From: Paraburkholderia ginsengiterrae | GTDB lineage: Bacteria > Pseudomonadota > Gammaproteobacteria > Burkholderiales > Burkholderiaceae | Assembly: GCF_001645125.1 (NCBI RefSeq) | Contig: NZ_LXKA01000371.1 | Span: 62,001-126,000, forward strand | Length of the DNA: 64,000 bases | Reading direction: 5' to 3' | In this document: positions 18,017-42,848 of the stretch, in pieces | How the letters are laid out: every line of letters begins with the position of its first letter | Numbering within the stretch: position 1 is the first letter of the stretch | The notes under the pieces: model-generated | The model's input: only the letters and a program-made list of their open reading frames with translations | What the model was told of the DNA's origin: nothing | Databases searched by the model: none | Made by a program: the position numbers and the translations under genes

Positions 18017-18088
18017 GACGTCTCCTGTGTTCTATTCAAAAAAGCTGATTAAATAAAAAGTGGGCGTGGTCGCCCGGGCTGTAAAGGT

Positions 18089-18346: not shown

Positions 18347-18451
18347 TACTCGTCCACTCGATGTCAACGAGTGTTAAGATATATTGATATCAGACTTAAA
18401 CAAATCGGATTTCTGGCATATCTGTTATGCACATTCAGCAGGGGCTAGCGT

Positions 18452-21831: not shown

Positions 21832-21910
21832 ATATCCAGCCTGTTCGTGCAATAAGCGCTTGCTTCAAGTAGGCGGAATGCCGGGATCTTCCAGATACAG
21901 CGCGTATGCA

Positions 21911-23080: not shown

Positions 23081-23177
23081 GTCTCCAATCCTTCAAGAAT
23101 AATTCTTATACTTTCACTGCACGCGATCGCTAATCTCTAATGTCCAAAAGCATGAATGTCTTCCAAATGCACCACCT

Positions 23178-24359: not shown

Positions 24360-24638
24360 AATGATGTCTCCATCTGGCTTTATTTAGCCATACTAATTAT
24401 TTAACCAACTTATTTTTATAAGTCAGTGCGTATCCTATGACACGCCCTTGTCCCGTTTCTGACTTCAATCAGATGCCTAAAGCGAATCGCCAACCCGACG
24501 CGAGTTCTGCTCTGACTTAACGCAAGACAAACCCGAACCAATTTGATTTACTGTATTCGAATAACGTCGCGCGAGAAATACCACTTCGTACATAGCTGCT
24601 ATGTCAGCGCCGATACACAAATTCGTTAATAAAATTTC

Positions 24639-26834: not shown

Positions 26835-27745
26835 TCTCCCCAGTACAGGCGTAGAGGGTTATCGACGAGCAACTTTTTCTGAAGTTCCGCGGTTGTGGCT
26901 ATTCGAGGGATGAAATCAACGAGCAAACCATCATCTGGCATATGGCTCTTCAGATTTGGGTGAGGCCAGTCAGTGCCCCAAAGCACGCGATCAGGGAATG
27001 TTTCGACTATCCGCCTAGCGAACGGAACGACATCGTGATAGGCATCTTGCTCGCCGTTCAGCGCAGGTTTTCCAGTCAGAGATAGTCGCTCCGGACAGCT
27101 TACTTTAGACCATACGTTCGGATGCTCGTGCATGAATCTCACGAAGAGATCAAACTCCTCTCCGTCGACAGGCATGGATACGTCAGGCCGCCCCATGTGA
27201 TCAATCACCAGAATCGTCGGCAAGTCCGTAAAGAAGTCCCAGAGTTCTGGTAAATCTGCAGCTTCAAAATAGACAACAATATGCCAGCCGAGTCGGGCGA
27301 CGCGATGCGCAATGTCGATCAAATCTTCCTTTGGCGTGAAGTCAACCAGCCTCTTGACGAAATTGAATCGTACTCCGCGTATGCCAGCGTCATGCAATCC
27401 TTGCAACTCGTGCTCGCTCACATCGCGTTTGACAGTTGCTACGCCGCGCGCCTTGCCATCAGAGTTCAAGCACGCATCGACTAGTGCGCGGTTATCTGCA
27501 CCGTGGCAGGTGGCCTGCACAATCACGTTGCGCTCAAAGCCCAAGTGATCGCGCAGCGCAAAGAGTTGGTCCCTGGTAGCGTCACAGGGAGTGTACTTGC
27601 GCTCAGGAGCATAAGGAAACCGCTCTGCCGGCCCGAAAACATGGCAGTGGGCGTCCACTGATCCGGGCGGCAACTTGAATTGGGGCAACGAAGGACCTTC
27701 GAACCAGTCGAGCCAACCGGGTGTTTTATGGAAACGCTCACTCAT
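26831..27745 (-). CDS. ligI: 2-pyrone-4,6-dicarboxylate lactonase
   Basis: 304 residues, an amidohydrolase-family TIM barrel. It begins with a conserved leader ending in the VDAHCHVFG motif (His33 and His35), and has VIDHMGRPD and WGTDWPHPN near the C-terminus carrying further active-site residues. It hydrolyses PDC to 4-oxalomesaconate. It overlaps ligA by 4 bp and follows ligK after 117 bp. Confidence 0.94.
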   Translation of the reverse strand: MSERFHKTPGWLDWFEGPSLPQFKLPPGSVDAHCHVFGPAERFPYAPERKYTPCDATRDQLFALRDHLGFERNVIVQATCHGADNRALVDACLNSDGKARGVATVKRDVSEHELQGLHDAGIRGVRFNFVKRLVDFTPKEDLIDIAHRVARLGWHIVVYFEAADLPELWDFFTDLPTILVIDHMGRPDVSMPVDGEEFDLFVRFMHEHPNVWSKVSCPERLSLTGKPALNGEQDAYHDVVPFARRIVETFPDRVLWGTDWPHPNLKSHMPDDGLLVDFIPRIATTAELQKKLLVDNPLRLYWGE

Positions 27746-27862
27746 CTTCTTTCTCGCACCATCTCAGGTTATTTCTTGATCGGATGTAATATGGCCTGAA
27801 TCTCAATAGACCACGACATGCCAGCGTCAGAGGCGTTAAACGCGGTCTGCAGACGATCGAGG

Positions 27863-28564
27863 TCAATCGATGTACTTGAGACCTGCCCGGTTTAGCGATT
27901 CGCGCATTGAATACATGTCAAGACCGAGCTCACCCGCGGCCAGCTTCTTCCGTTTCTGTGCCTCGTTAGCTTCGCGCGCTAAACCAGCATCGGCGACCTG
28001 CGCCGCCAACGCGGCGGGTACGACGACAACACCGTCATCGTCAGCGATCACAACATCACCCGGATTCACTAGGGCTCCAGCGCACACGACAGGTATATTT
28101 ACCGATCCGAGCGTCGCCTTGACCGTACCCTTTGCACTGACTGCCTTCGAGAATACGGGGAACTTCATTTCGGTTAGGCCGTAGACATCGCGGCATCCCC
28201 CATCGATTACTAGACCCGCCGCTCCGCGGGCTAGAAAGCTAGTGGCTAAAAGGTCCCCAAAGAACCCGTCCGTACTGTCGGCCGTTACCGCCGCAACGAC
28301 GACGTCACCCGGCTGAATCTGTTCGGCAACCACGTGCATCATCCAGTTGTCACCCGGGTGCAAAAGCACGGTCACTGCGGGACCACAGGCGTACGCCCCG
28401 GCATAAATTGGACGCATGTAGGTTTTCATCAACCCCATTCGGCCCATTGCCTCATGGATAGTTGCTACGCCCAAAGCTGAAAGCTGCTGTACTGCACCTG
28501 GGTCAGCACGAACGATGTTGCGCTTCACCACACCAAGCTGGCTACCAAGATTGGTATCGATCAT
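27863..28564 (-). CDS. ligK: 4-carboxy-4-hydroxy-2-oxoadipate (CHA) aldolase
   Basis: About 233 residues from the ATG at 28564; a GTG at 28573 overlapping the ligJ stop is an alternative start. RraA-like fold with family blocks [26 protein letters not shown] and the metal-site motif [10 protein letters not shown]. It cleaves CHA into pyruvate and oxaloacetate, the last step of the pathway, and such enzymes also act on 4-hydroxy-4-methyl-2-oxoglutarate. It follows ligJ directly. Confidence 0.94.
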
Positions 28565-28569
28565 GATTC

Positions 28570-29598
28570 TCACAGCCCTTTCTGTTTTAGTTGCACATCA
28601 AGGCGTGGATAAACACGTCTTGCATTACCTTCATAAATCTTGTGCCGATCCTCTGATGACAGATTGATCGAAGCCTCGATATAGCGTTTGGTGTCGTCGT
28701 AGTAGAAGTTTGTCTCCGGATCGACACCGCGCACTGCACCAATCATTTCGCTTGCAAACAGGACGTTGTCAACTGGTATAACCTTTGTCAGCAGGTCAAT
28801 GCCTGGTTGGTGATATACGCAGGTATCAAAGAAAATATTCTTGAGTAGGTGCTCACTGAGCAACGGCTTCTTCAACTCCTGCGCGAGTCCGCGGAAGCGC
28901 CCCCAGTGGTATGGAACTGCACCCCCGCCATGTGGGATCACAAACTTCAGATCCGGAAAATCCTTGAACAGATCCGAGGTAAGACACTGCATGAATGCTG
29001 TTGTGTCGGCGTTCAAATAATGCGCGCCTGTGGTATGGAAGCAGGCGTTGCAACTGGTCGAAACATGCACCATCGCTGGAATCTGGTACTCGACCATCTT
29101 TTCGTAGATGGGATACCAGTAACGATCCGACAATGGCGGCGAGGTCCAATGTCCACCCGACGGATCAGGGTTCAGGTTAAGACCAACAAATCCGTACTCC
29201 TTGACGCATCTCTCTAACTCAGGGATGCAGGTCTTCGGGTCGACGCCCGGAGACTGGGGCAGCATTGCGGCGCCAATAAAATTATCAGGAAAGAGTTGCG
29301 AAACTCGATAGCAGAGTTCGTTGCATATCGCGCTCCACGTCGCGCTCGTCTCGAAGTCGCCGATGTGGTGGGCCATGAAACTGGCACGCGGAGAGAAGAT
29401 CGTCAGGTCGCTGCCGCGCTCCTGCATCTTCTTCAACTGATTGGAAGCAATTGATTCGCGGAGTTCGTCATCGTTGATCTTTAGATCTTTCATTGCCGGT
29501 TTTTCAACCGGAGCGTTCAGCGCAGCGATCTGGCGGTTGCGCCACTCCTCCAACGACTTCGGCGCAGTCGTGTAGTGGCCGTGACAATCAATGATCAT
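28570..29598 (-). CDS. ligJ: 4-oxalomesaconate hydratase
   Basis: 342 residues, the length of SYK-6 LigJ. Amidohydrolase_2 fold opening with the metal-binding MIIDCHGHY (His6, His8) and later the segments [18 protein letters not shown] and [23 protein letters not shown] precedes the ATG. It hydrates 4-oxalomesaconate to CHA. It is the promoter-proximal gene of the lig operon, divergent from the LysR gene at 30079. No OMA tautomerase (LigU/GalD) gene is visible in the window. Confidence 0.94.
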
Positions 29599-30078
29599 GT
29601 TGCGTCTTCTCCAATATGTACCGAGTTACCCACCATGACCTCGCCGCGCGTATTCAATCGCGCCATCCGCAGAAACTCCACGCGTCGAAATGTATGAGGA
29701 TTGTTTGGGTCGATCTCAACGCAGCGAGTCAAACAGGGACTCCGGATCTATGCCGGGCCGGTTGCGGCGGCTCGCTATCCCGAACTTGCCCATCAGGGGT
29801 GCGCCTCACTCAGTCAGTGAATCCGACCCCGATTGGGGGACACCATTACACCAAGCCGCAGTCGGTCGCACGTATCGACATCGATCGGAAGATTGATGAC
29901 GTCGAAAGTTCGCCCGTCCGACGTGTCGGCACGCATGAGGCGACATGACATTGCGCGCTGCAGGGACTTCATCGATCTCGCCGCGTTGATGTGCTTGCAT
30001 TCTTTCGCTTTATCTGTCATTCTGCAATGACATATCCGTCATATTAGATATGCATAAATTGCAACTCAGGAGACTGCC
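29599..30078. other. Divergent promoter region of the lig operon and its LysR gene
   Basis: 480 bp without a gene. It should hold the lig promoter on the minus strand and the LysR promoter on the plus strand. The most striking element is a perfect inverted repeat close to the LysR gene, listed separately. Confidence 0.6.
30015..30032. promoter_or_regulatory. Perfect 18-bp inverted repeat, likely LysR operator
   Basis: TGTCATT at 30015-30021 and AATGACA at 30026-30032 form a perfect 7-bp dyad with a 4-nt spacer, 47 bp before the LysR start. A further ATGAC...GTCAT half-site pair overlaps it (30027-30042). The position suits autoregulation and control of the divergent ligJ operon. Confidence 0.6.
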
Positions 30079-31020
30079 ATGGAGCTTCGTCAGTTGGAAT
30101 TCTTCGTCCATGTCGCGGAACTGGGAAGCTTCACACGGGCCTCGAATTTCCTTTCCGTCGCCCAGCCAGTACTGAGTCGGCAGGTGCGCGCATTAGAGGT
30201 GGAGTTCCGGCAGACGCTTCTGGAGCGTAACGGTCGGGGCGTAACGTTGACCGAAGCGGGCAAGCGCTTTCTGGAGCACGGGCGGAGCGTCCTCGCACAA
30301 ATTGAGCGAGCCCAACTCGACATGGAGGAAGGTCGAGGCGCCTCGACGGGACGGCTCGTAGTGGCGCTGCCGCCTAGCGTCAGCCATACGCTTACGGCGC
30401 CACTCGTCAGAGCCTTTCGCGAGCGCTTCCCCAAAGCTACCCTTAGCGTCCTTGAGGGGTTGTCCACATACGTGCTGGAGTGGCTGGCGATTGGGCGTGT
30501 CGACTGCGCCGTGGTCTATACTGTCCCCACTTCTTCTGGCGTTGATTTAGCGCCAGTACTCGATGAGCAGCTATATCTGGTCTCCGGTCGCAAAACCGGC
30601 GCGGCTCGAGCCACCATTCCAATCGACGACGAAATTAGCCTGGCAGAAGTAGCCGAACGGGATCTCGTCATGCCGAGCCGGCCTCATTCGATTCGTATGC
30701 TCGTCGAAGCAAGCATGGCGCAGGCCGCGCTGAAGCCACGAATCGCGCTCGAAATCGAAAGTATCCCAGCGATCCTGACTCTCGTACGTGATGAAGACGT
30801 ACATGCGGTACTGTCGCTTAAGGCAGTCCGATCGCGCGGGCACGAGCATGATTTTCACGTGCGGCCTATCCGTCAGCCGACTCTCGAAACCACGTTATGG
30901 ATCGCCACTTCCGCACAACGTCCACACGGGCCGCTGCTTAACCAAGCAGTTCCCCTATTGCACAGCCTATTGCGCGAACATTGGATGACCGCTGTTCAAG
31001 GCGAACCATCACTAGCGTGA
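30079..31020 (+). CDS. LysR-family regulator of the protocatechuate 4,5-cleavage operon
   Basis: 313 residues with an N-terminal helix-turn-helix (FTRASNFLSVAQPVLSRQVRAL) and effector domain. It is divergent from ligJ with an inverted repeat in the spacer, so it is the likely activator of the lig operon. It is related to the regulator at 18452-19393 rather than to the NahR-type one at the left edge. The inducer is probably protocatechuate or a pathway intermediate (inference). Confidence 0.88.
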   Translation: MELRQLEFFVHVAELGSFTRASNFLSVAQPVLSRQVRALEVEFRQTLLERNGRGVTLTEAGKRFLEHGRSVLAQIERAQLDMEEGRGASTGRLVVALPPSVSHTLTAPLVRAFRERFPKATLSVLEGLSTYVLEWLAIGRVDCAVVYTVPTSSGVDLAPVLDEQLYLVSGRKTGAARATIPIDDEISLAEVAERDLVMPSRPHSIRMLVEASMAQAALKPRIALEIESIPAILTLVRDEDVHAVLSLKAVRSRGHEHDFHVRPIRQPTLETTLWIATSAQRPHGPLLNQAVPLLHSLLREHWMTAVQGEPSLA

Positions 31021-31868
31021 ACTCTGGCATCCGAAAAGTTAGTCGGGTGCCGATGACGGTGCGAGCCGATGGCCTCGCGGGAGACGTCTCTTCTTTACCT
31101 TATCGCGCGGGTTGCGGAACTCACCGCACTGCGACGAACCAATGCTGACCTGAGCGTCCGTTCGGATTCACGAGATCAGATGCCAAACATATCGGCACCT
31201 GGCAATGAGTCGATGCCGGGTAGTACCACAACCCTCTGCACATGGAACAATGTTAGCTTTTCAGTTCAAATCCCTCGTTCGCCTTGCGAAAACGTTGGCG
31301 AAACACCAACACACAGTTCTGCCCTAAATCCGAGCGCCAACCCCGCCTCTCGTGACACTACGAAGACATTGCGCCCGAGAATTGGGGAGTAAAACACTGC
31401 TGTGCAGTACTCTCCACCACGGAAGAAGCGATGTCGATACGGAAGAATGTGACCGCCCTGAATCATCGATAAGTGTTACATGCCTGCATCTAACAACGTC
31501 CTCGGCGAACACCCAACGATCTCTCGATTGTTCGCCAACTGAATTGGTTTTCCGACAACGCAAGGACCATTCCGACGCTGGAATCTCGCTAGAGTCTCTG
31601 AGCGTCCCACCTCGGCCAAGGTCGAAATTGCAGATTCGCCGTTTGAGCTACTGCCCACCGGGATTGAGGGAAATCGTGTCACCACTCCCACGTTCGACTG
31701 CGATCGCTTGCTCTTCACCGCGACGCACATCGCGATGTCCCGCTGTAACATTTGGGAAGTAATACCTCTGCCCTCCCGAGCCCCCCCAGATTTTCGATGC
31801 TCTATTTTTGGTCTTGCAGAACGGCGCCCATATATGCGATCATCATTGATACATTTAAAGAGGTACCC
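31021..31868. other. Gene-poor spacer, 0.85 kb
   Basis: No gene recognised on either strand. Frames at 31069-31392 and 31352-31762 lack motifs and ribosome sites. The last part must carry the ene-reductase promoter. Confidence 0.45.
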
Positions 31869-32912
31869 ATGATAGCGAACGAACTTCTCACTCCCGTCTC
31901 ACTTGGCGCGCTACGCCTTGAGAATCGCGTAATCATGTCGCCAATGACACGAATGCGCGCAGATGCCGATCAAGCGCCACCAGATTACGTCGGTACGTAC
32001 TACGCTCAGCGCGCCACGGCAGGCCTGATCATTTCTGAGTCTATCGCTATCCGAAATTATGGCGATGGCTGGCCGAATGTCCCAGGGTTATATACGGACA
32101 CTCAGCTCGCTGCGTGGCGAAGCGTTGTGAATGCCGTTCACGCTCGAGGTGGTCTGATCGCAGCGCAACTCTGGCACGTCGGGCGTGCCCGATTGAATCC
32201 ACCTGGTGAGGAGCGACCGAAATACTGGGCACTCACGGATGAACTGCACCCACACGATTTGGACGCTATCGATATTGTGCAAATCCCGTTGGACTTCGCG
32301 AGAGCTGCACAGCGCGCGCGAGAGATCGGATTTGACGCAGTAGAAATTCATAGCGGTAGCTCTAACCTGCTCGATCGCTTTCTTCGTCCGTCGGCAAATT
32401 TGCGTGTCGACCACTACGGAGGGGATACGAGCAACCGTACGCGGTTGACACGAGAAATCGTCGCGGCGGTTGCAAACGCCATCGGACCAGACCGCGTGGG
32501 CATCAAATTCTCTCCGAGTGCACCAGTTCGTGGCGAATCGGACACTGCGTCGTCCGTTACGTTTGCGTCGCTTCTGGCTGATCTATCGCGTATTGAGTTG
32601 GCGTACGTTCATGTGACGCGTGTTACGCACGATGATCGTGCACGAGGATGGGGCGAGGGGTTATCTTTCGAAGAAATCCGCGACATGTACCGTGGGCGGT
32701 TGATTGGCGCAGGTGATTTCGTGCCCGGCGATGGCCGGCGGGCCGTCGAGAGTGGCGTGCTTGATGCAGTTGCATTCGGGCGCGTGTTTCTCGCAAATCC
32801 GGATCTCGTCCGTCGAATCGCCCTTGATGCGCCCCTCAACGCGCCCGACCACTCGACATTTTATGCACCCGGCCCGCGCGGGCTCACGGACTATCCTACG
32901 CTTGAGACTTAA
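31869..32912 (+). CDS. Old Yellow Enzyme-family protein with altered active site
   Basis: 347 residues from the ATG at 31869; an open frame to 31752 has no reason to be translated. FMN-binding TIM-barrel features are clear: NRVIMSPMTRMRA, AAQLWHVGR, RVDHYGGDTSNRTRL and the C-terminal GAGDF...VAFGRVFLANPDLVRR. In usual OYE ene-reductases the substrate-binding pair His-x2-His/Asn is followed two residues later by the proton-donor Tyr (HSAHGYL in PETN reductase). Here the aligned segment is HSGSSNL, keeping His161 but replacing the second His by Ser164 and Tyr by Asn166. It may have another substrate or be a poor ene-reductase. No operon partner. Confidence 0.85.
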   Translation: MIANELLTPVSLGALRLENRVIMSPMTRMRADADQAPPDYVGTYYAQRATAGLIISESIAIRNYGDGWPNVPGLYTDTQLAAWRSVVNAVHARGGLIAAQLWHVGRARLNPPGEERPKYWALTDELHPHDLDAIDIVQIPLDFARAAQRAREIGFDAVEIHSGSSNLLDRFLRPSANLRVDHYGGDTSNRTRLTREIVAAVANAIGPDRVGIKFSPSAPVRGESDTASSVTFASLLADLSRIELAYVHVTRVTHDDRARGWGEGLSFEEIRDMYRGRLIGAGDFVPGDGRRAVESGVLDAVAFGRVFLANPDLVRRIALDAPLNAPDHSTFYAPGPRGLTDYPTLET

Positions 32913-33235
32913 GCCCGGATGAGCAATGCTCGGGATCTCATGTGGCCTAAGTCGTCTCGCTGCGCCCCTCGCTTTTGAATATTGAGACGGTTGAGGTCTA
33001 ACGTCGCTCCTTTCGTGGCAACGCCGACACGGAAGGCGGCGACGAGTTTTTGAGGTCATCCGGTAAGCGCAAATGATCCTGTCCCGGGAATCCTCGCACA
33101 CGAGACAGGCGACGTTAAATGACCATGACGATTCGAGGACGATTCTTTTCTAGAACTTTCGAGCTTCCTATCCGCAACGAGCACACGAATACTCTCCCCA
33201 AGCAGGCGGCGTTCAATACTGACGAAACGACATCG

Positions 33236-33290
33236 TGTCGATTTGCACGGAATCCTGACCCCCACGATTTGCATTGAATTCTCACCCTCC
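33236..33290. mobile_element. Possible terminal remnant of an IS21-type element
   Basis: The stretch begins TGTCGATTTGCACGG and contains two spaced near-repeats of the form GATTTGCAxxGAATyCTsACCC, the style of repeated binding sites at IS21-family ends. No istA or istB remains. Assignment rests on pattern memory only. Confidence 0.35.
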
Positions 33291-33569
33291 CATTGGAACA
33301 ACTTTGCGGGCTATGGTCGTACGCGAGCTGGGTTCGTTTCTATGGTTCTCTTGGAACGCTATTTGAAAGAATTTGTGCGAAGCGAAGCGCCCTCCAGCAG
33401 ATTTTACGCATTAAACACTACTCCGGTAATCACTCTGCTCTCGCCACAAACAGCGGCGTTTTCGGTAGTTTCCTCTGACCGTTCCGCAAGCAATCAGCAG
33501 CGAACATTCTGAAGGGCCAGGCGTGCAACACGCCTGACTGCTTGATACCTCAAATCGTATACCGCGTTA

Positions 33570-33585
33570 AACATTTGCAGATAAT
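33570..33585 (+). repeat. Copy 1 of a 16-bp repeat flanking abiEi
   Basis: AACATTTGCAGATAAT, 52 bp upstream of the AbiEi start. A 15/16 match lies at 34648-34663. AbiEi-type antitoxins repress their own promoters through short repeats, so this may be an operator. Confidence 0.45.
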
Positions 33586-33637
33586 CAAATGAAGTCGGCA
33601 TATACTGAGACCAGATAACGCGAAACGGCGGGAGACG

Positions 33638-34369
33638 ATGAGCAACAAAACAGTCCAGCGATTGATGCAGGAAAGCCGGCGCGGCCATCCTGTCGATTCA
33701 GGCATGCTCAGGGACATGGGAATCAGTGCTGCGCTCGCGTCCCACATGGTCAAATCCGGCTGGCTGCAACGGCTCTCGAACGGCGCATACCTTTTGACCG
33801 GGGACGCGCCAACAAGGGATGGTTCGATCGCGTATCTGAGTCGACGCATCGCCGGTCTTCACGTTGGGGGAAAAACTGCGCTTTCGTGGCAGGGCGTCCG
33901 TCACAACATCGCGTTTCACGAGAAGGTTGTGCTATGGGGCCAGAAGCCCTATCGCATCCCCTCGTGGGTGGACCAGCACCTCAGCTACTCGTTTCAGACC
34001 ACGGCGCTGTTCGACGTCGATCTGCCCTACGAAAACGGCCTCAAGCCACTCCCCTCTGGCGACCCGGAGGTCAAGGTGTCAGTGCCAGAACGCGCCATCC
34101 TGGAACTTGCCAGCGACATCGGCAAGGGGCAGTCGTTTGAGGAAGCGAGCAACCTGATGGTAGGCCTGCGCAATCTGCGCGCCGACGTGCTGGACGAGTT
34201 TCTGAGCCATTGCCACCGGGTGAAGGTGGTCAGGCTCGTGCGGGACCTCGGCCTTGAGGCGGATTTTTCGTGGGCTCGGGGACTTCAGAAGCATGTAGAC
34301 CGTCTCGGTGCCGGGACAAGATGGTCGAATCGGACAAAAAATGGACGGCTAACTCTCAAACCGGAATGA
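33638..34369 (+). CDS. AbiEi-family antitoxin (type IV TA), no partner toxin
   Basis: 243 residues. The N-terminal winged helix (LRDMGISAALASHMVKSGWLQRLSNGAYLLTGD) and the C-terminal antitoxin domain with SVPERAILELASDIG match the longer AbiEi transcription-factor antitoxins. These normally precede AbiEii, a nucleotidyltransferase toxin; no such gene follows, only about 500 bp of spacer and then IS3 remains. The toxin has probably been lost or the protein kept as a stand-alone repressor. GGGAGA lies a few nt before the ATG. Confidence 0.82.
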   Translation: MSNKTVQRLMQESRRGHPVDSGMLRDMGISAALASHMVKSGWLQRLSNGAYLLTGDAPTRDGSIAYLSRRIAGLHVGGKTALSWQGVRHNIAFHEKVVLWGQKPYRIPSWVDQHLSYSFQTTALFDVDLPYENGLKPLPSGDPEVKVSVPERAILELASDIGKGQSFEEASNLMVGLRNLRADVLDEFLSHCHRVKVVRLVRDLGLEADFSWARGLQKHVDRLGAGTRWSNRTKNGRLTLKPE

Positions 34370-34863
34370 ATGTAAATCCCGTCTAGTTGATGCTCGCATT
34401 GCGCCGTTTAATGATTCGATCCGCGCATGTGAATGAGGCCGGCTACGATTCACCGTCACCCTGTCGCTTGCATATGTATGTCGAGCGGCGCAACGAATCG
34501 TGAAGCCCCGAACGCACTGAGGATATCCCGGCTTCCAATCGTTCCAAATGATTTATCAGACATTACGCCGCACTTGAACAGCGCGCGGCGAGGCACCATG
34601 AAGTTCCTCTCAGCGCGAACGAGCCGAAATTAACACGATTATCTTTTAACATTTACAGATAATTCCAAAAGAATCGAAATACCGATAATCTGTATTTATT
34701 GCAAAAATTTATAACCATATATATATTTAACGTAGCTACACTAATTGATCCCGACCCTGTCTGGAAACAGTGAAACTCCGGCGGGCACTCGGCACCGCCA
34801 TGGATCGATGGCGTTCATTCCGTAGGTGAGAAATTCCGCCAAAGATTGCTTTCTTGACGAGCC
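34370..34863. other. AT-rich spacer downstream of abiEi
   Basis: No gene, and no trace of an AbiEii toxin that I can recognise. The part 34620-34740 is strongly AT-rich and contains repeat copy 2 and an inverted TACAGAT...ATCTGTA pair. Confidence 0.45.
34648..34663 (+). repeat. Copy 2 of the 16-bp repeat, upstream of the IS3/tns region
   Basis: AACATTTACAGATAAT, one mismatch from the copy before abiEi. It is followed about 25 bp later by an inverted half (GATAATCTGTA), giving a TACAGAT...ATCTGTA dyad. It could be a second AbiEi binding site, in front of the transposition genes. Confidence 0.4.
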
Positions 34864-34879
34864 TTAGGAGGACCTATCG

Positions 34880-35560
34880 ATGCTTATCGTGAATCGTCTG
34901 CGACGTGACAAGGGGCGCTCCAACCTGAACCGCAAATCGCTGCATCGGTCCATGAGCCAAAACAATCTGCTGCTGCATTGCCCTTCGGATAAGGCACCGG
35001 ACCATCGGCATGAGGGCAAGATCATTACCCCCGGCCCGAATTTGCGTTGGGTATCGGATAACTTGGAATTGCGGTGTGAAAACGGGGAAATCGTCCGTGT
35101 GACATTCGCCATTGACACCTATTCCCACGAAATCATTGGGTGGACGGCGGGCAAGGTCGGTTTTACCGGGGATTCACTGCGAGACTTCATGCGCCTGTGT
35201 ATAAAGCGGCGATTTAGGCAGCATCGAACGCCGCATGCAGTCGAATGGCTCTCGGACAAAGGGCGTGTCAACACTTCATACGAGACAGTAGCCTTTGCGA
35301 TAGGACTTGGCCTGCTGCCGCGCTTTGCGGCACTTAGCTGTACCGCATCCAAAGGCGTGGCGGAGTCGTTCGCGAGGACGTTACTGGTTGACTACCTCTA
35401 CGCTTATGGTCGGCGCGACGCAGTAACCGTCCTCGCCCAGCTCGACAGCTGGTTCGAAGGCTACGGGGCACACCCGCGCAGAGCGTGAAGACACAGTCAC
35501 CGCGCGAGACCATCCGCGAAGAAATGACGGTCGCCTGCTCGAATGAACCGCCTCAATTCA
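34880..35560 (+). pseudogene. IS3-family (IS2-like) OrfB transposase remnant
   Basis: The first frame (34880-35488, 202 codons) keeps the integrase core with all three catalytic acids (Asp60, Asp126, Glu162; the last two 35 residues apart) but lacks the usual N-terminal HTH region. After AHPRRA the frame stops, while the conserved C-terminus (KTQSPRETIREE) continues in the +1 frame from 35485, so there is a frameshift. AGGAGG stands 8 nt before the ATG, so a shortened product could still be made. The remnant runs directly into tnsA, leaving no room for a transposon end between them. Confidence 0.75.
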
Positions 35561-36298
35561 AATCACAGCATCGATATCAGATTCGACGAACCCCCTTCGA
35601 CCAGGGTCCGCATGCAAACACCCATCAGCGCGTCCGGGAACCGGATTGTCTCCATTCTTCACCCTGCCGAGGGCCAGTTACGTGCCAAAACTATCGTCAG
35701 CCGATCCAACGCGACGCCATCCGGGAAATATCCGTCATGGAAGATGGGAAGGATGATGCAGTGGGGAAAAAGCAGCGAGCTAAACGCGTTCCGCTTGCTT
35801 GACGCAGAACCGAGAGTCCTCGCCTTCAGAGAATATCCTTTAGCGATCCAACTCATCTGCAACGACCGGGCGTTCAAGCACTATCCAGAAATACAGGTCG
35901 ATCTAAGCTCGGGACGCGAGCTTTGGCGCGTGTGCACAGCAGAACAGGCTGCCTCCCCTGACGAAGTTGCCTTGACTTCTCTACTGAAGGCCCAGCTCCC
36001 GTCCTATGGGTATACCTATCGCATCGTTACCTCGGAATCCCTTGCCCTGGAACCTCGTCTTTCAATCGCACTTTCGCTGCTGCGCTACGGGCGCAAGACC
36101 ATCACGTTGACAGAACGCGAGCACCTGCTGCGCATCCTCGAAAAAACGGGTTATATCCACTGGGGTACAGCGGATGCCGGCCTACTTGGTCCACGCAGCC
36201 GCACAATCATCTCCCGGCTCGCGCTCGAAGGCATGCTTAGCGTCTCCTGCGACGCTCCCTTGAATCCCAAAACCACTTTCATCTGGTGCAGTATTTAA
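35543..36298 (+). CDS. tnsA: TnsA-like endonuclease with altered catalytic residues
   Basis: 251 residues from the ATG at 35543; an ATG at 35612 preceded by AGGG may be the true start. The family opening (GKYPSWKMGRMMQW, residues 61-74), then SSELNAFRLLDAEP with the first catalytic Glu79, places it with TnsA nucleases that cut the 5' strands in Tn7-type cut-and-paste. The next core motif, normally PD..., is HYPEIQVD (Glu116 in place of Asp), and the usual E/Q-V-K triplet is R129-V-C131. Two or three of the four active-site positions are therefore changed. The C-terminal part (IHWG..., ISRLALEG) looks like a winged helix that could bind TnsC. Confidence 0.78.
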   Translation: MNRLNSNHSIDIRFDEPPSTRVRMQTPISASGNRIVSILHPAEGQLRAKTIVSRSNATPSGKYPSWKMGRMMQWGKSSELNAFRLLDAEPRVLAFREYPLAIQLICNDRAFKHYPEIQVDLSSGRELWRVCTAEQAASPDEVALTSLLKAQLPSYGYTYRIVTSESLALEPRLSIALSLLRYGRKTITLTEREHLLRILEKTGYIHWGTADAGLLGPRSRTIISRLALEGMLSVSCDAPLNPKTTFIWCSI

Positions 36299-36308
36299 GG
36301 AATCCAAA

Positions 36309-38318
36309 ATGAGTACATCGAGATTTCGAGCAGGAGTGCGTGTCATAATCGATGGCATAGATGGGACTCTATTTAGAAAGCTCGACGACGATACGTGGCA
36401 GATCGAGGACGACCGCACAAGGCGAATCCGTGAATACAGACAAGGTGACCTTCTTGCGCTGTATCAATCTGGAAAGCTTGTGTTCGCCGTCCGCCCAGAA
36501 GGAAATTCTCGGCGCCGCTATCTCCCTGAGGCTCACGCTGACAAGGCAGCGTGGGATATCGCAAAAATACGGCGCAGATATGTTCTAGCCGTGATGGATA
36601 TGCCAAGCCTGGGACAGCAAACCAGGGATTTGATACATCGGACATGGGAGAAGCTGAAAAACAAGCCAGCGAAATGTCCATCGGAGGTAACCGTTTGGCG
36701 TTGGAAGCTCCGCTACCTTAATGCCGGGAGGGATATCCGTGCACTACTTCCGGCCAAGGCACTCAGGGGCAATAGAAAGGAACGCTATCCGGATGAAGTT
36801 CTCACATTCGTCGCAGAATCTATTGAAGACATCTATCTGACTTCGGAGAGAAAAACAATCCAGGACACTCTCGATGAAGCACTGGATAGGGTTATCAAAG
36901 AGAACAAGCTTCGACCGAGCTCTCAGCAACTGCCCTTGCCTACGTTCCGTCTCGTTGCACGTGCGATCGCCAGGATTCCCGAATTCGACCGCTATGTGGC
37001 CCGTTATGGCCGTACTGCCGCGGAAAAACGCTTCCGGGCAGTCCTGCATCATCACGTGACCGGCGCCCCCCTGGATCGCGCACAAATAGACCATACGCCA
37101 CTTGATCTGATTGTAGTTGACGATGAGTCGCTGCTCCCGCTGGGACGACCGTATGTAACAGCGTGTCTGGACTGTGCCACACGTTGTGTACTCGGCTTGC
37201 ATATCAGCTTCGAACCCCCTAGCCACCTAACTGTGGCCCGCTGTCTGCAACATGCTTTTATGCCGAAAACGTCGCTCATTCAATCATATCCAGAAGTCAA
37301 GAATGCATGGATAGCTTACGGTGTCATGAGCCAGCTAGATGTAGACAATGGTCTCGAATTTCATAGTGACAGTTTCGAAAATGGATGCTATTCGTCGGGT
37401 ATCGAAATTAACTATTCACCACGCAAAAAAGCGTGGTTCAAGGGAAAGATCGAGCGATTCCTGAAGACATTTAATGAGAACGTTTCTCACGGAATACCGG
37501 GAACAACATTCAGAAATATTCTCGAAAAGGACGACTACGATCCAACAAAATTCGCGGTTGTGCGGTGGAGTACCCTCAAGAAAATTTCGCATATCTGGGT
37601 GGTCGATGTATATCACCAAAAAATACACCGATCGCTGGGCGTACCACCCGCGATCAAATGGGCTTCCAGTATTCGCCAGGAAGACATCCCTCTCCCCGAC
37701 GACCCGAAATCACTCAATTTCATCTTCGGAAAGTGCGATGAGCGGACCTTGTCTCATAAGGGAATTGAACTTCACGGCCTCTTCTACAACTCCGTAGAAC
37801 TCACCTACCTGCGACGAAGGCTCGGCGACAGCCTTCGTGTAGAAGTGCGCATCGACACATCGAACCTGGGACATATTGTTGTACTCGCACCAGACAAGGC
37901 AGAAATGTACGACGTACCTTGTCTTCGTATCGACTATGCGGCTTCGCTGTCGCTATATCAACATAGAATTTGCAAGCGATTCGCCAACAGGCACCTTGAA
38001 AACTACTCTCCGGAAGGATGGCTAGAAGCAAAATCCCTGATCCGGAAGATTGTAGAGGAAGAAATCTTTCATAAAAAACGTCGGACGCGCTCGAAGGCGG
38101 CACGTTTCAGAAACATGGATGCCACCGAGTCGTCCACTGCTGAACGCGTTCCGCAGACACCAGCCCTTCCAGTTTCCTCAAGCAGTGCTGCTGACGACTT
38201 TGATAGCTCTCTTCAGGATGACGTTGCCCCCACTCCGGATACGCACCCGGCATCAACCTCCAACCCGTCGCCACGGCGGATTACCCCAAGGTACCGCGAC
38301 CGCGGACCGTCAGAATGA
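36309..38318 (+). CDS. tnsB: TnsB-type DDE transposase
   Basis: 669 residues. Rve-type integrase core with an intact triad: Asp261 (QIDHTPLD), Asp346 (QLDVDNGLEFHS) and Glu382 (FKGKIERFLKTFNE), with 35 residues between the last two. N-terminal DNA-binding helices precede it, a Mu-type C-terminal barrel follows, and the tail (residues ~610-669) is Ser/Pro/Thr-rich, probably for contact with TnsC. It cuts and joins the 3' ends and should bind the ATTTCANTTTATGG repeats at 41779-41902. It begins 10 bp after tnsA and overlaps tnsC by 4 bp. Confidence 0.93.
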   Translation: MSTSRFRAGVRVIIDGIDGTLFRKLDDDTWQIEDDRTRRIREYRQGDLLALYQSGKLVFAVRPEGNSRRRYLPEAHADKAAWDIAKIRRRYVLAVMDMPSLGQQTRDLIHRTWEKLKNKPAKCPSEVTVWRWKLRYLNAGRDIRALLPAKALRGNRKERYPDEVLTFVAESIEDIYLTSERKTIQDTLDEALDRVIKENKLRPSSQQLPLPTFRLVARAIARIPEFDRYVARYGRTAAEKRFRAVLHHHVTGAPLDRAQIDHTPLDLIVVDDESLLPLGRPYVTACLDCATRCVLGLHISFEPPSHLTVARCLQHAFMPKTSLIQSYPEVKNAWIAYGVMSQLDVDNGLEFHSDSFENGCYSSGIEINYSPRKKAWFKGKIERFLKTFNENVSHGIPGTTFRNILEKDDYDPTKFAVVRWSTLKKISHIWVVDVYHQKIHRSLGVPPAIKWASSIRQEDIPLPDDPKSLNFIFGKCDERTLSHKGIELHGLFYNSVELTYLRRRLGDSLRVEVRIDTSNLGHIVVLAPDKAEMYDVPCLRIDYAASLSLYQHRICKRFANRHLENYSPEGWLEAKSLIRKIVEEEIFHKKRRTRSKAARFRNMDATESSTAERVPQTPALPVSSSSAADDFDSSLQDDVAPTPDTHPASTSNPSPRRITPRYRDRGPSE

Positions 38319-39367
38319 ACCTAAGACTATCCACGAGAAAAAAGATGAAAAAACAGAAGCCACCCATTAGCCTGATCGAAGACACTCTGGTGCCACATCA
38401 GCCGTTTGAAAACGCGACGAGTCGTCTCGAACAATGCTTCGCATTTTCACACAGCAAAAGGGAGCCAATATGTATTGCGGTCGTAGGCGAATCGCGCACC
38501 GGAAAAAGCCGCGTCCTTACAGAGTTTTCCGACGCGCATCCAATTACACGCAGTGAGGAGGGACTGCACATTCCTATCCTCTGTGTCACTGCACCGTCCA
38601 AACCAACGGTGAAAGGCCTGGCCGAAACGATGCTCGAAGGCATGCAGGATCAAACATTGAATAGTGGAACGGAAAATTATAAAACGCGAAGACTGGTTCG
38701 CTTGATGAAGGAATGCGGCACATTGATGATCTTAATTGACGAGTTCCAACATTTCGTCGACAAAGCTTCAGACAGAGTAATCTACGATGCCGCAGACTGG
38801 CTAAAAACGCTAGTTGACAAATTGCGTTGTGTGCTGGTCGTCGCAGGCTTACCCTCGTCCGTTGGAATCCTAACCCAGAACGAGCAGTTTCAAGGGCGTT
38901 TCTATGCTCCGGTTCATATGCCGAGATTTGACTGGAAGATTGAAGCCCACCGGGATGAATTCATCGCCATTCTCGGTGCATTTCATGAATCAATGAGCAG
39001 ATATTTCGATTTACCGAAGCTGGATGATAGAGGCATGGCTTTTCGATGCTACTGTGGTTCCGGCGGCCTCATTGGCTATGTGACGAAGTTCCTGAGGCAG
39101 GTCGTCTGGAATGCGATCGATGGAGGCAAGGAGACAATCACGCTGGCCGATCTTGCCGCTGCGCAAGATCAGGCAATATGGGCAGAAGAGGGGCGCACCG
39201 ATCTGTTGAATCCGTTTTCGAGGTCGTTCCGTCCCACTCCCAACGATCAGCTTCTATCAGCCGCCCATACTATTGGAAAATCCGTTGAACCACCCCCAAA
39301 GAGCAGAAGAGGCGCCACTGGCCGCTCCAAGCGCATGACGAGCCGCGAGGCACTGAGCGCCACATGA
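38315..39367 (+). CDS. tnsC: TnsC/TniB-type AAA+ ATPase
   Basis: 350 residues. Walker A GESRTGKS (58-65), Walker B LMILIDE (137-143) and a sensor-type segment VVAGLPSS. The ATG overlaps tnsB's stop (ATGA), though an internal Met11 is a possible start. TnsC filaments link the target selector TniQ to the TnsB transposase. The basic C-terminus (SRRGATGRSKR) may contact DNA or TnsA. It overlaps tniQ by 4 bp. Confidence 0.93.
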   Translation: MNLRLSTRKKMKKQKPPISLIEDTLVPHQPFENATSRLEQCFAFSHSKREPICIAVVGESRTGKSRVLTEFSDAHPITRSEEGLHIPILCVTAPSKPTVKGLAETMLEGMQDQTLNSGTENYKTRRLVRLMKECGTLMILIDEFQHFVDKASDRVIYDAADWLKTLVDKLRCVLVVAGLPSSVGILTQNEQFQGRFYAPVHMPRFDWKIEAHRDEFIAILGAFHESMSRYFDLPKLDDRGMAFRCYCGSGGLIGYVTKFLRQVVWNAIDGGKETITLADLAAAQDQAIWAEEGRTDLLNPFSRSFRPTPNDQLLSAAHTIGKSVEPPPKSRRGATGRSKRMTSREALSAT

Positions 39368-41652
39368 TGCTCGTACGCACGCCTTTTCACGCGCCAACCG
39401 AAAGCCTGCTCGGCTATGCGCTGCGCGTGTCCGAGACAAACGGATATGAAACGCCGTGGCATATCCTCAAACTCGCTGGAATTGAGCAGGGGGCAATGAC
39501 GAATGCGGGTTTCCCTGTGGCGAAACTTGCAGCCATTCTGGGCCGGCGTCCGGAAGCGCTTCGCAACATCGCGTATATGATGCCCGTCGGTCGCCAGACG
39601 AGCTTCGTAATCCTTGAACATCAGCTTGGTGGCAGCCTCACTACCAGCCCTTTGAGATTACAACGTCCTGCACTGTGTCCGGAATGCGTATCTGATCGAG
39701 GATTCATAGAAGCCTTCTTTGATCTGAGTCTCGCCGTTGCTTGCCCCGTGCATGGGCGGGAGTTGCTATCTCAATGCGAGCGTTGCGGGAATCGACTGAC
39801 ACACTTTCGTCCCGGATTGCTCATCTGCAGATGTAGCGCATCTTTAGCGGAGCAGATCCGACCTACCGTAAGTGAGCGGATCATTGCACTGATGGCCGTT
39901 CTGAAGGCCAATCTCGAGCGCGTTGAACTCTCATCAACCACGCCAGTAGCAGGCTTCCCGACTGGCCAGTTGCTAAGCATGCCGCTGCGCTCATTGCTGA
40001 CGCACCTTCCGAAATTCGGCCGCTTCAATCGTGCGACCTACGCGCCAGATTCACTGGAGTTTATTGATGGCGCCGCAGAGGCTCTTGAGGATTGGCCTCA
40101 CGGCTTCCATCGGTTTCTCGACCTACACGGCCAGAGCAAGGAGGCTCCCTCATTTCATAAGCGCTTCGAGCAGTTCTCCGAACTGTTCTTCGGCGCACCA
40201 GAAACGCGCATGAAATTTAACTGGCTGCATTCCGAGTTTCTCCAGTTCGGACTGGCACACGAAAAGCGATCGTACGTAGATCCGAGAGCCATACCTGATC
40301 GCTCTCATGAACGCAGGCGCATCCCGTTGAGAGAGTTTTCAAGACGTACCGGCCACGACATACGCTCACTTGAAGCATGGCATCAGAGAGGATCTCTGGA
40401 TATTATCAGTGTAGGAGCCGGGACGAACCGGCGGTACGTCGTCGATACCGAATCGATTACTTTGCCGCCTCGACCGCAAAGAAATGAGATTCTCGGAGAG
40501 CGCCAGGCAGCCGCCTGGATAGGAATCCCAGTGAGTGTCCTCGAGCGCTTACGGGATCTGGGCCAGTTCCCTATGCGTCACCATCTTTCATTCCGATATG
40601 GCTATCATCGGGCTGATCTGATGGCGTTCAGGGAGCGACTGATCGATCGTAGCCCGCTCATCGCACACGCGGCTTTACCCGATCAGATGATCAGCCTGAG
40701 TCAGATATTGCGCACGTTACGGCTCCATAGTGTGGAGCATAAGGCGCAACTTCTTATCGGCTACCTGAACGGTGAGCTGTCGTCTTTGGGCAGAACAGGC
40801 GACACCCTGGGTGAAATCTTCTTTGACAGAGAGCGAGTCATGGCACTCGCAGAAGCAAGCCGCGCTGTCATTGCCGAAGGCGCACTTACACAGAGGCAGG
40901 CCGCTCAAGCGATTGGGTGCGACGTTCAGGTAATAAGCGGCTTGCTCCATGAAAAATACCTCAAGAACGTGACGAGAGGTAAGTCGGTCCACATTGATGC
41001 AGATTCGGTCGAGCGGTTCGCCCAGAGCTACGTACCGCTCGCCAGATGCGCTGCCGACTGGGCGTCGAGTTCGCGGCATCTGAAACAGATCTGCCGTCAA
41101 GCACGAATCAAAGTACTCGAAATTGCACATTACGAAAACGGCAAGTCTCCTTTCATCAAACGCCGCGATTCTCAGCTTTTGCATCAAGCATTCAACGACG
41201 ATAACCGCGCCAGATCTGCTGGGACGCCAAAAGAAACGAAACCAAACCCCGTCGACCAACTCCGCGCATATCTTCAGAATCTCACAGACAACGGGCAACC
41301 CCTGCCATGGCGAGGCGGCCTGCCTAACAAAATCGCAGTCGCGAGAGCGTGCGGTTTCGATCGCGACGTGTTCTACACCAATCCAGAAGCAATCGAACTT
41401 TTTCGCGCTTTTGTGTGCAAGGAACGTGATCGACGAGTAGTTGCAGGCGACTTCACGGATCGCCCCGTAGTCCGATTGCGGAGCTACCTGGAACAGTTGA
41501 AACAAAGCGGCGAGTCGCTTCCCACGTGTTACGGAAGGCCAAACAAGAGCGTCATCGCCAGGAACGCTGGCGTCGACCGCGACCTCTTTCATCGCAGCAT
41601 TGAAGCAGCGAGGATGCTGGAGACGTTCGTGAACCCGAACCGGCGTAGATAG
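39364..41652 (+). CDS. tniQ: TniQ/TnsD-type target-selection protein with C-terminal tandem repeat
   Basis: 762 residues, far longer than the ~400-residue TniQ of CRISPR-associated Tn7 elements, hence TnsD-like. The N-terminal TniQ domain carries zinc-finger positions Cys105-x2-Cys108, Cys127-x2-His130, Cys138-x2-Cys141 and Cys155-x-Cys157. The middle has at least two helix-turn-helix-like stretches (PLREFSRRTGHDIRSLEAW and LTQRQAAQAIGCDVQVISGL). The end has two ~60-residue repeats (about 629-688 and 701-758) sharing LRxYLxxL, LPxxxGxPNK and GxDRDxF. A long DNA-reading C-terminus suits recognition of one fixed chromosomal site, probably the hydroxyacid dehydrogenase gene beside the right end. 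Confidence 0.88.
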   Translation: MMLVRTPFHAPTESLLGYALRVSETNGYETPWHILKLAGIEQGAMTNAGFPVAKLAAILGRRPEALRNIAYMMPVGRQTSFVILEHQLGGSLTTSPLRLQRPALCPECVSDRGFIEAFFDLSLAVACPVHGRELLSQCERCGNRLTHFRPGLLICRCSASLAEQIRPTVSERIIALMAVLKANLERVELSSTTPVAGFPTGQLLSMPLRSLLTHLPKFGRFNRATYAPDSLEFIDGAAEALEDWPHGFHRFLDLHGQSKEAPSFHKRFEQFSELFFGAPETRMKFNWLHSEFLQFGLAHEKRSYVDPRAIPDRSHERRRIPLREFSRRTGHDIRSLEAWHQRGSLDIISVGAGTNRRYVVDTESITLPPRPQRNEILGERQAAAWIGIPVSVLERLRDLGQFPMRHHLSFRYGYHRADLMAFRERLIDRSPLIAHAALPDQMISLSQILRTLRLHSVEHKAQLLIGYLNGELSSLGRTGDTLGEIFFDRERVMALAEASRAVIAEGALTQRQAAQAIGCDVQVISGLLHEKYLKNVTRGKSVHIDADSVERFAQSYVPLARCAADWASSSRHLKQICRQARIKVLEIAHYENGKSPFIKRRDSQLLHQAFNDDNRARSAGTPKETKPNPVDQLRAYLQNLTDNGQPLPWRGGLPNKIAVARACGFDRDVFYTNPEAIELFRAFVCKERDRRVVAGDFTDRPVVRLRSYLEQLKQSGESLPTCYGRPNKSVIARNAGVDRDLFHRSIEAARMLETFVNPNRRR

Positions 41653-41740
41653 CTCCAATTTTCCGGCACTCCTACGGCGAGCAAAAGCTTGCACTACATG
41701 CAATATTCACAGTGCGGTTCGGTTATTCCGAAATCGCCGC

Positions 41741-41760
41741 GCCTTACGGGGTAAGGCTTT
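41741..41760 (+). terminator. Possible terminator of the tns operon
   Basis: GCCTTAC, a 3-nt loop and GTAAGGC form a 7-bp hairpin followed by TTT, 88 bp after the tniQ stop and before the end repeats. Short T-run, so moderate support. Confidence 0.5.
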
Positions 41761-41778
41761 GCGCCCGTTTTGGAGGAA

Positions 41779-41913
41779 ATTTCACTTTATGGGGAAAAGT
41801 GTGGTGAATATTTCACTTTATGCGGTCGGTTGATTTCAATTTATGGTGAATGGACCCATCGTAAGTCATTGATTTTATTAGAAACATCATTTCATTTTAT
41901 GGTGTAACCGACA
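41779..41913 (-). repeat. Right terminal region with four TnsB-site-like repeats
   Basis: Copies of ATTTCANTTTATGG stand at 41779-41792, 41810-41823 (last base C), 41833-41846 and 41889-41902, all in the same orientation. The outermost copy runs into the terminus, which reads 5'-TGTCGGTTACACCATAAAAT on the minus strand from 41913 inward. TGT starts and several ~14-22 bp repeats are standard for Tn7-like ends. Confidence 0.85.
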
Positions 41914-41918
41914 GCTCA
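41914..41918. other. Candidate 5-bp target duplication at the insertion point
   Basis: GCTCA directly outside the terminus. Tn7-type elements duplicate 5 bp. Here the last three bases are the reverse complement of the dehydrogenase TGA stop, so the duplication would include the stop codon. It cannot be confirmed without the left junction. Confidence 0.4.
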
Positions 41919-42848
41919 GATCGGCGTCAACACCGCTTCACCCGCGAAATGCCGCCGGGCGTTGCTCAGGAAATTCTCGACCGAGGCGGCGACCGCCTCC
42001 GGCGAGCGCCCGCCCACATGCGGCGTCAGCACGACATTGCGCAGCGCCAGCAACGCTTCCGGCGGATGCGGTTCGCCCTCATAGACGTCGAGCGCAGCGC
42101 CGGCAATCGTGCCCGCCGTGAGCGCCTGGGCGAGTGCCGCCGTGTCGAGCACACTGCCACGCGAGACGTTGACCACGAAGCCCCGTGGACCGAGCGCCTC
42201 GAACACCGTCTTGCCGATCAGATGACGCGTGCCCGCACCACCGGGCGTCGCCACCACCAGGAAATCGCTCCATTGCGCGAGCGCTGCCACGCTGTCGAAA
42301 TACCGCAGCGGCGAACCTTCACGTGGCTTGCGATTGTGATAGCCCATTTCCATGTCGAAGCCTGCGCCACGGCGCGCCACCTTGTCGCCGATATTGCCCA
42401 GCCCGACAATGCCAAGGCGTTTGCCGGCGACGTTCGGGCGCATCGGCAGCGTGTCGCGCCAGGCGCCCTTGCGCGTCTCCCGATCGAGTTGCGGCACGTC
42501 GCGCACCACCGCGAGCAGCAAGGCGAACGCGTGATCGGCCACGCAATGATCGTTGGTGCCCGCGCCGTTGACGAGCACGATGCCGCGCGCGCGGGCGTGC
42601 TCGATGGCGAGATTTTCATAACCGGCGCCCAGCGCGCTGACCAGTTCGAGTTGCGGCATGCGGTCGATTTCCGCGGCGCTCAGTCCGGTCGTGCCGTTGG
42701 TCAGCACGGCGCGAATCGTGCCGCCATGCGCGGCGACCGCGGCGGCTCGCCGGGTCGCATCGGGCGCGTAGACGACGTTGAACACGGCCTCGATACTCGC
42801 GCGGCTTGCATCGGTTAGCGGAATCAGAACCAGCAGGGATGGCGTCAT
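41916..42848 (-). CDS. D-isomer-specific 2-hydroxyacid dehydrogenase
   Basis: 310 residues. NAD(P)-binding GIVGLGNIGDKVAR, the catalytic Arg in NVSRGSVLDT, Glu in the DVYEGEP region and His in LTPHVGGRS are all present. It reduces glyoxylate/hydroxypyruvate-type 2-oxoacids. GC-rich core-type sequence. Its stop codon lies 2 bp from the Tn7-like terminus, and the complete C-terminus (EAVLTPI) is retained, so the insertion left the protein intact, as with glmS and Tn7. Confidence 0.9.
   Translation of the reverse strand: MTPSLLVLIPLTDASRASIEAVFNVVYAPDATRRAAAVAAHGGTIRAVLTNGTTGLSAAEIDRMPQLELVSALGAGYENLAIEHARARGIVLVNGAGTNDHCVADHAFALLLAVVRDVPQLDRETRKGAWRDTLPMRPNVAGKRLGIVGLGNIGDKVARRGAGFDMEMGYHNRKPREGSPLRYFDSVAALAQWSDFLVVATPGGAGTRHLIGKTVFEALGPRGFVVNVSRGSVLDTAALAQALTAGTIAGAALDVYEGEPHPPEALLALRNVVLTPHVGGRSPEAVAASVENFLSNARRHFAGEAVLTPI

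Follow-up and report, generated by a model that had tools for sequence, protein, structure and literature searches.

A 103-kb Tn7-like transposon behind nrdJ in Paraburkholderia ginsengiterrae and its relatives

In Tn7, the TnsD protein reads the 3' end of glmS, and the right, tns-bearing end of the transposon faces that gene. Tn7-like elements with other attachment genes include Tn6022 (comM) and Tn6230 (yhiN), according to sections of PMC11406308 and PMC10293859. The guides of type I-F3 CRISPR (clustered regularly interspaced short palindromic repeats)-associated transposons are described as mostly confined to guaC, yciA, ffs and rsmJ (Hsieh and Peters 2024, sections of PMC11406308), and Tn5053, which is without TnsA, targets the resolution sites of plasmids (sections of PMC9527255 and PMC11406308). 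Here we describe a Tn7-like element in a 64,000-bp stretch of the P. ginsengiterrae genome, the window, which covers positions 62001-126000 of contig C361 in the 8.5-Mb source genome (G000; G numbers denote the genomes compared). The window contains a tnsA-tnsB-tnsC-tniQ unit whose transposon end lies beside ddh, a D-2-hydroxyacid dehydrogenase gene, and a first-pass annotation had proposed the 3' end of ddh as the attachment site. We consider it highly probable that this 103-kb transposon, with TnsA-like, TnsB, TnsC and TniQ proteins, homes instead to the 3' end of nrdJ, which encodes an adenosylcobalamin-dependent (class II) ribonucleotide reductase. The position and orientation of the insertion, its recurrence, empty sites for a relative and target-site duplications in three of six elements carry this conclusion.

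Ends of the element and their distance from nrdJ

The right terminus, TGTCGGTTACACCATAAA read on the minus strand from window position 41913, occurs a single time in the window at up to three mismatches, and zero occurrences are expected in shuffled sequence. Inward of it lie four repeats of the form CATAAARTGAAAT. The short repeat alone is not rare at up to three mismatches (5 seen versus 2.6 expected), so the evidence for the right end is the clustering of the repeats together with a register common to relatives; their spacing is nearly matched in G100 and in the first of two copies in G079. A whole-genome search for the left end with the right terminus, again allowing three mismatches, returned three places compared to one for a reversed control pattern. 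One of these places, C361:638 on the opposite strand, is the left end, with the sequence TGTGGGGTGCACCATAAAATGAAAT and an array of three repeats. A repeat scan of C361:1-126000 found it to be the only other cluster, with one lone repeat at 69810. The whole element therefore spans 103,276 bp (C361:638-103913) on the same contig as the window, and its G+C content is 0.563 versus 0.625 in the right flank.

An open reading frame that is truncated by the contig start precedes the left end, and exactly 27 bp lie between its stop codon and that end; most of its relatives in the genus are about 850-1,000 codons long. This frame is called nrdJ because its full-length homologue next to the G083 element scores 585 bits with TIGR02504 (NrdJ_Z), for which the cut-off is 400; the homologue also has the Pfam barrel domain (2e-129). 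The cargo-bearing left end points towards nrdJ and the tns operon is distal. The target-facing end adjoins nrdJ and not glmS, the site of Tn7 proper, and the host gene stays intact. The first-pass annotation had anticipated both an attachment gene other than glmS and an undamaged host gene.

The last 60 bp of nrdJ, which encode IRKDGCDFCTACGEVGACG and the stop codon, are the most conserved stretch examined. Thirty-six of the 60 positions do not vary across the 46 loci compared, which come from 44 genomes and lineages of the genus (G006 and G069 contribute twice). The rows were stacked without gaps, and the low conservation upstream of about -90 may in part be misalignment. The tail of nrdJ is conserved because it encodes redox cysteines. 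The long TniQ would read this conserved, Cys-rich tail over about the last 70 bp of the gene and would then recruit TnsC and TnsB, fixing distance and orientation so that the left end comes first behind the stop codon. By analogy with TnsD at glmS, it is probably TniQ that directs homing to nrdJ.

Recurrence behind nrdJ and its alternative explanations

A search of 145 genus genomes at E ≤ 1e-40 detected this TniQ family in six: the source genome, G100 (89% identity), G083 (62%), G020 (61%), G082 (on two contigs) and G079 (fragments). Weaker matches with E values of 1e-18 to 1e-3 are at other places and in other genomes. A distant TniQ-like region (28-30% identity) is found elsewhere in the source genome at C1:228046-230098. 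Searches of 118 genomes each located ddh (E ≤ 1e-80) in 100 and the nrdJ tail (E ≤ 1e-50) in 115. In the source genome, G020, G083 and G079, a single contig holds nrdJ, tniQ and ddh, with tniQ in the middle and facing ddh. G100 and G082 have tniQ and ddh together in the same arrangement, and nrdJ and the left end on a separate contig. The distance from the nrdJ stop to the left end is 27 bp in G000, G020, G083, G100 and G082 and 28 bp in the degenerate G079 copy. All seven elements whose orientation is readable, three of them split between contigs, are oriented alike. An insertion point fixed beside a conserved gene is itself a property of Tn7-like elements.

The DNA downstream of nrdJ was read in all 115 genomes that have the gene (116 loci, with two in G006). 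A left end with at least two repeats is present at seven loci, five of them at 27 bp, G079 at 28 bp and G133 at 29 bp; in G133 no TniQ or TnsB of the family was detected at the limits used. Four further loci with one loose repeat are outside this count. The single repeats in G107 and G077 look like chance, and those in G007 (C20, near 39390) and G010 (C52, near 88380), located about 26-29 bp behind nrdJ, look like left-end remnants and are putative scars. Two tandem copies lie behind nrdJ in G079 (C10:103957-149082), the second left end following the first right end after seven bases, which is the arrangement that entry of a second element at this site would produce. Both copies are degenerate, having no TnsB at E ≤ 1e-10 and only fragments of tniQ.

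A pattern-based scan of the genomes of 84,980 species with the TniQ alignment confirmed three loci, in Paraburkholderia gardini LMG 32171, Paraburkholderia sp. BCC1885 and the Rhodocyclaceae metagenome-assembled genome (MAG) mtb01 (G542). The Rhodocyclaceae TniQ is 39-40% identical. The MAG contains one nrdJ-tail match, and a left end with three repeats CATAAGCTGCAAG is located 11 bp past this nrdJ stop on contig C18. The tnsABC-tniQ genes are on contig C37 (159,861 bp), where the right end at 19,984, 13 kb beyond tniQ, is followed by ACGCT, a hairpin and a NUDIX-domain gene (Pfam, 6e-15). ACGCT is also the five bases preceding the left end on C18. We infer that C18 and C37 belong to one element because the repeats and the duplication match. 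The TniQ C-terminal repeat occurs in two copies in Paraburkholderia, with the 27-bp offset, and in one copy in Rhodocyclaceae, with the 11-bp offset; that the repeat number causally sets the offset is speculation.

Both flanks are readable for six elements (G000, G100, G082, G020, G083 and the Rhodocyclaceae MAG). Perfect 5-bp duplications border three of them: ATGCG/ATGCG in G020, GTTCC/GTTCC in G083 and ACGCT/ACGCT in the MAG. Empty sites were found for G020. The DNA of its right flank begins 31 bp past the nrdJ stop in G107 and 29 bp past it in G001, with 75% and 74% identity, respectively, over about 785 bases. In G111, the G020 flank is present from base 132 on, 138 bp behind nrdJ.

The proximity of ddh is the origin of the proposal that the element recognizes the ddh 3' end from its right end. 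The dehydrogenase stop codon (TGA at 41918-41916) is beside the terminus, as the first-pass annotation had it, with two bases (GC) between them, and the six genus copies are within, or consistent with, the nrdJ-ddh interval. The right ends of four relatives, however, are 2.6 kb (G083, at 1043138), 4.8 kb (G100, at 89170), 8.5 kb (G082, at C222:2062) and 12 kb (G020, at 287077) away from ddh, and the Rhodocyclaceae right end adjoins the NUDIX gene, the 10 kb of sequence read around it yielding no significant match to ddh (best E = 1.3). It is the distance from the left end to nrdJ that is fixed. The predicted duplication of GCTCA, which would include the ddh stop codon, is likewise absent from the other side, where the end at C361:638 is preceded by CGTGC. 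Use of ddh as the attachment site is already contradicted by these data and we give it next to no credence. In element-free genomes, the matched ends of nrdJ and ddh are 21, 40, 88, 104 and 113 bp apart (G126, G115, G118, G025 and G014), and ddh is the convergent neighbor of nrdJ in the genus rather than an attachment gene. The right end touches ddh because the element of the window evidently entered a compact nrdJ-ddh site.

A shared location could also come from a single old insertion inherited vertically, or from a nrdJ-ddh gap that acts as a tolerant hotspot, without active targeting of nrdJ. Across the genus, the size of the gap does range from about 20 bp up to tens of kb, element-free genomes included. 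Neither scenario accounts well for a 27-bp spacing that is identical while the flanking letters differ, for the perfect duplications bordering the G020 and G083 elements, whose tns proteins share 58-73% identity with those of the window, or for the empty sites in the G020 relatives. An element at the same gene in another family, and the G079 copy whose left end lies seven bases behind a right end as repeated insertion would give, point the same way, and we regard inheritance or passive tolerance as improbable.

Several observations weigh against homing to nrdJ. The duplications are mismatched in three of six elements, CGTGC/GCTCA in G000, GCTGA/TGAAT in G100 and ATTGC/GCGGC in G082, and the window's own element, with its left copy at C361:633-637, is among them. 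In each of these, the final two or three letters of the left 5-mer (GC, TGA and GC, respectively) reappear at the start of the right flank, a pattern noticed post hoc. Small deletions at the right junction could have shortened the right-hand duplication in all three, and that of the window copy would perhaps have been cut to its last two bases in this way. The comparison with element-free genomes that had been proposed for this locus yielded the nrdJ boundary in relatives of G020 and no empty site from the window's own species. The flank is 4.4 kb (G066) and 3.3 kb (G132) from nrdJ, with genes intervening, in two of the five G020 relatives compared. The offset is not constant, being 11 bp in the Rhodocyclaceae MAG and 28-29 bp in degenerate copies, and G100, G082 and the MAG each have their left and right ends on separate contigs. 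An order-level search of 399 genomes gave just two others at E ≤ 1e-30, G222, whose tniQ contig is only 4.8 kb, and G216, whose 510-residue TniQ is without the C-terminal part; the nrdJ tail was undetected in both genomes. These two suggest that the wider TniQ family uses other sites, untied to nrdJ. A search for the ends of the distant G216 element identified none, and a plasmid search with TniQ gave no match at E ≤ 1e-20. Transposition and the binding of TniQ to nrdJ are both deduced from sequence.

TnsA and the mode of transposition

The window TnsA has no Pfam match and reaches 7e-8 and 32 bits against the TnsA-like NCBIfam model NF033179, which has a cut-off of 110. The catalytic residues of its PD-(D/E)xK nuclease motif are not conserved (HYPEIQVDL...RELWRVCTA). 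The motif is degenerate in all five Paraburkholderia copies with tnsA, which separates them from the cut-and-paste class with an active TnsA. The PD aspartate is replaced by E, E, Q and G in G000, G100, G020 and G083, respectively, and the lysine is C in all four. In the G082 protein, R replaces the lysine, Gln replaces the first Glu, and the D120 position is occupied by Glu. The canonical HYPD...RELWEIKEA motif is preserved in the Rhodocyclaceae TnsA, which keeps the first Glu and matches PF08722. The placement of the motif agrees with solved chains, where the matches are weak (E = 0.06 for the family profile with 9bw1 and E = 1.7 for the Rhodocyclaceae protein with 30ga).

Catalytic mutations in TnsA are reported to abolish cut-and-paste and spare replicative transposition, and elements without tnsA typically acquire a resolvase (Benler et al. 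2021, sections of PMC8649781). A TnsA that is retained and apparently nuclease-dead would be an intermediate state. The loss of the motif in Paraburkholderia and not in Rhodocyclaceae suggests replicative transposition, and because the nuclease residues are lost, the Paraburkholderia copies would move through cointegrates, a weaker inference than that of homing. A tyrosine recombinase (Pfam Phage_integrase) is present in the source genome, G020 and G082 have related proteins, and a search of the G083 element, which is complete at 31.9 kb, gave no homologue. The argument about TnsA is one of sequence alignment, and the sole structure model is of low confidence (predicted local distance difference test score of 48.6) and was unused as evidence.

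Homing to nrdJ is also compatible with a TnsA that remains active through relocated residues, such as D120 and E126, and supports cut and paste. The gene is conserved under purifying selection, with ratios of nonsynonymous to synonymous substitution (dN/dS) of 0.16 versus G083 and 0.22 versus G100; the latter is for a 223-codon core, used because the whole-gene value of 0.40 is inflated by an unalignable start region. The corresponding tniQ values are 0.15 and 0.24. D120 and E126 are invariant across the four aligned copies, but the same four have lost the PD aspartate and the lysine of the ExK element, the fifth copy (G082) departs at the first Glu, the lysine and the D120 position itself, and the Rhodocyclaceae protein retains the canonical motif with its PF08722 match. 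We hold an active, rearranged nuclease to be possible and on the doubtful side. A similarly tentative standing is given to the fuller proposal that a lineage homing to nrdJ keeps TnsA as a conserved structural subunit without a nuclease site, would transpose replicatively, and may have its offset set by the number of TniQ C-terminal repeats.

Gene content and comparison with known elements

The first-pass description of the tns region was borne out. Open reading frames, family matches and pattern scans confirmed the tnsA-tnsB-tnsC-tniQ unit, the four end repeats and the TGT terminus at 41913 (Table 1). A DDE transposase, TnsB, occurs together with an AAA+ TnsC and a selector of the TniQ/TnsD family, and the TGT...ACA ends bear putative TnsB-site arrays, three on the left and four on the right. 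TnsB residues D261, D346 and E382, which we assign as the catalytic triad, are invariant in all five aligned elements. TniQ also matches a TniQ chain in PDB (E = 0.001), and self-similarity and alignments place the two copies of its C-terminal repeat at about residues 629-688 and 699-758. The start codon of tnsA is uncertain, with homology to G100 beginning at about residue 24 in alignment and tblastn. No tnsE was seen among the open reading frames in the tns region, for which no TnsE model was run, and no cas genes were noticed among the open frames around the operon, for which no cas models were run.

Table 1. Features of the element and its right flank, in window coordinates unless a contig is given
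Feature	Position	Strand	Basis or remark
Defence-type cargo	G000:C361:638-62000		PADLOC models
Element portion within the window	1..41913		Remainder at C361:638-62000, left of the window
AbiEi-family antitoxin gene near tnsA	33638..34369	+	Pfam AbiEi_3
tnsA-like gene	35543..36298	+	Sub-threshold NCBIfam NF033179, alignments and tblastn
tnsB, DDE transposase	36309..38318	+	Mu-transpos_C match, 5e-7
tnsC, AAA+ ATPase, TniB family	38315..39367	+	Pfam TniB PF05621, 1.2e-30
tniQ/tnsD-type target selector, 762 aa	39364..41652	+	Pfam PF06527, E = 1e-10
Right-end TnsB-site-like repeats (n = 4)	41779-41792, 41810-41823, 41833-41846, 41889-41902	-	Pattern scan
Right terminus TGT/ACA	41911..41913	-	Read from sequence
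GC between terminus and ddh stop	41914..41915		Possible remnant of the right copy of the 5-bp duplication
ddh, D-2-hydroxyacid dehydrogenase gene	41916..42848	-	Pfam 2-Hacid_dh_C, 7e-51; convergent chromosomal neighbor, not target; synteny

A fragment of an IS3-family (IS2 OrfB-like) transposase occupies window positions 34880-35488, just 5' of tnsA. Relatives of the AbiEi-type antitoxin gene lie near tnsA in G100 (two frames, 86-91% identical; L022:11032-11844) and in G020 (40%; L112) by tblastn. The antitoxin is possibly a regulator of the tns operon.

Ten larger cargo proteins encoded outside the window were compared with PADLOC models, and nine give matches, in part weak ones, at E ≤ 1e-5. 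The strong matches are to Mokosh MkoA (E = 0) and MkoB (9e-121) and to Lamassu-type LmuB (8e-117) and LmuA (9e-39). A protein of the E1-E2/JAB type from cyclic oligonucleotide-based antiphage signaling systems (CBASS) matches at 8e-75, and its neighbor has a weak phospholipase-effector match (3e-6). Window positions 1-33000 hold a putative aromatic-degradation gene cluster, as read from the translations. Defence genes are reported among the cargo of Tn7-like elements (Benler et al., sections of PMC8649781), in agreement with the cargo here. An island of more than 100 kb with defence and aromatic-degradation genes is explained in this way as one transposon.

Full-text literature searches returned no report of nrdJ as a Tn7 attachment site, within a scope that leaves aside supplements and most subscription papers, so that a supplementary table may list it. 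The strings nrd and ribonucle are absent from the main texts of Faure et al. 2023 and of Hsieh and Peters 2024 (PMC11406308), and the main text of Benler et al. 2021 (PMC8649781) has no nrd and a sole ribonucle mention that refers to ribonucleases. The main text of the paper on the BGImetal islands of Burkholderia (PMC10702557) mentions neither string. As far as the sections of that paper describe them, these tnsABC-tniQ islands resemble the present element in gene order, in belonging to a related genus and in having three left and four right TnsB sites, and they differ in carrying metal resistance as cargo; the likeness is judged by description and not by sequence.

The element shares with Tn7 (TnsABCDE, glmS) the TnsA, TnsB and TnsC proteins with a TniQ-family selector, the TGT...ACA ends with three left and four right TnsB-type sites, and an insertion point that lies close behind a conserved gene at a set distance; the 5-bp duplication known from Tn7 is perfect in three of six elements here. 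It differs from Tn7 in its target, nrdJ, in the left end that faces this target with the tns operon distal, and in the degenerate TnsA motif. Its TnsB is also far closer to other solved chains, the profile matching PseTnsAB best (E = 2.9e-95), followed by Tn6677 TnsB (5.3e-79), compared to 1.4e-14 for Tn7 TnsB. TnsB proteins of type I-F3 CRISPR-associated transposons, a type that includes PseTnsAB, are among the closest solved chains; unlike those systems, the present element has a single long TniQ gene, with repeats at the C terminus, for targeting, and its target is nrdJ. According to the sections cited above, comM is inactivated by Tn6022, which relies on TnsF together with TniQ, whereas nrdJ stays intact and the operon has no TnsF-type gene. 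TniQ, a TniB-family TnsC and possibly replicative transposition are points in common with the Tn5053/Tn402 family. That family is without TnsA and targets res sites, whereas here tnsA is retained, though its product is apparently nuclease-dead, and the target is a gene of the chromosome.

With nrdJ, the short list of attachment genes of Tn7-like elements gains an apparently unreported member whose conserved tail mirrors the logic of glmS. The series from an intact to a lost TnsA motif makes cut-and-paste versus replicative movement testable inside one family, and how selectors measure distance could be examined with the pair of TniQ proteins, which have one or two copies of the C-terminal repeat. 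Set beside the known systems, the locus is a known type of element with an apparently new attachment gene and an unusual TnsA.

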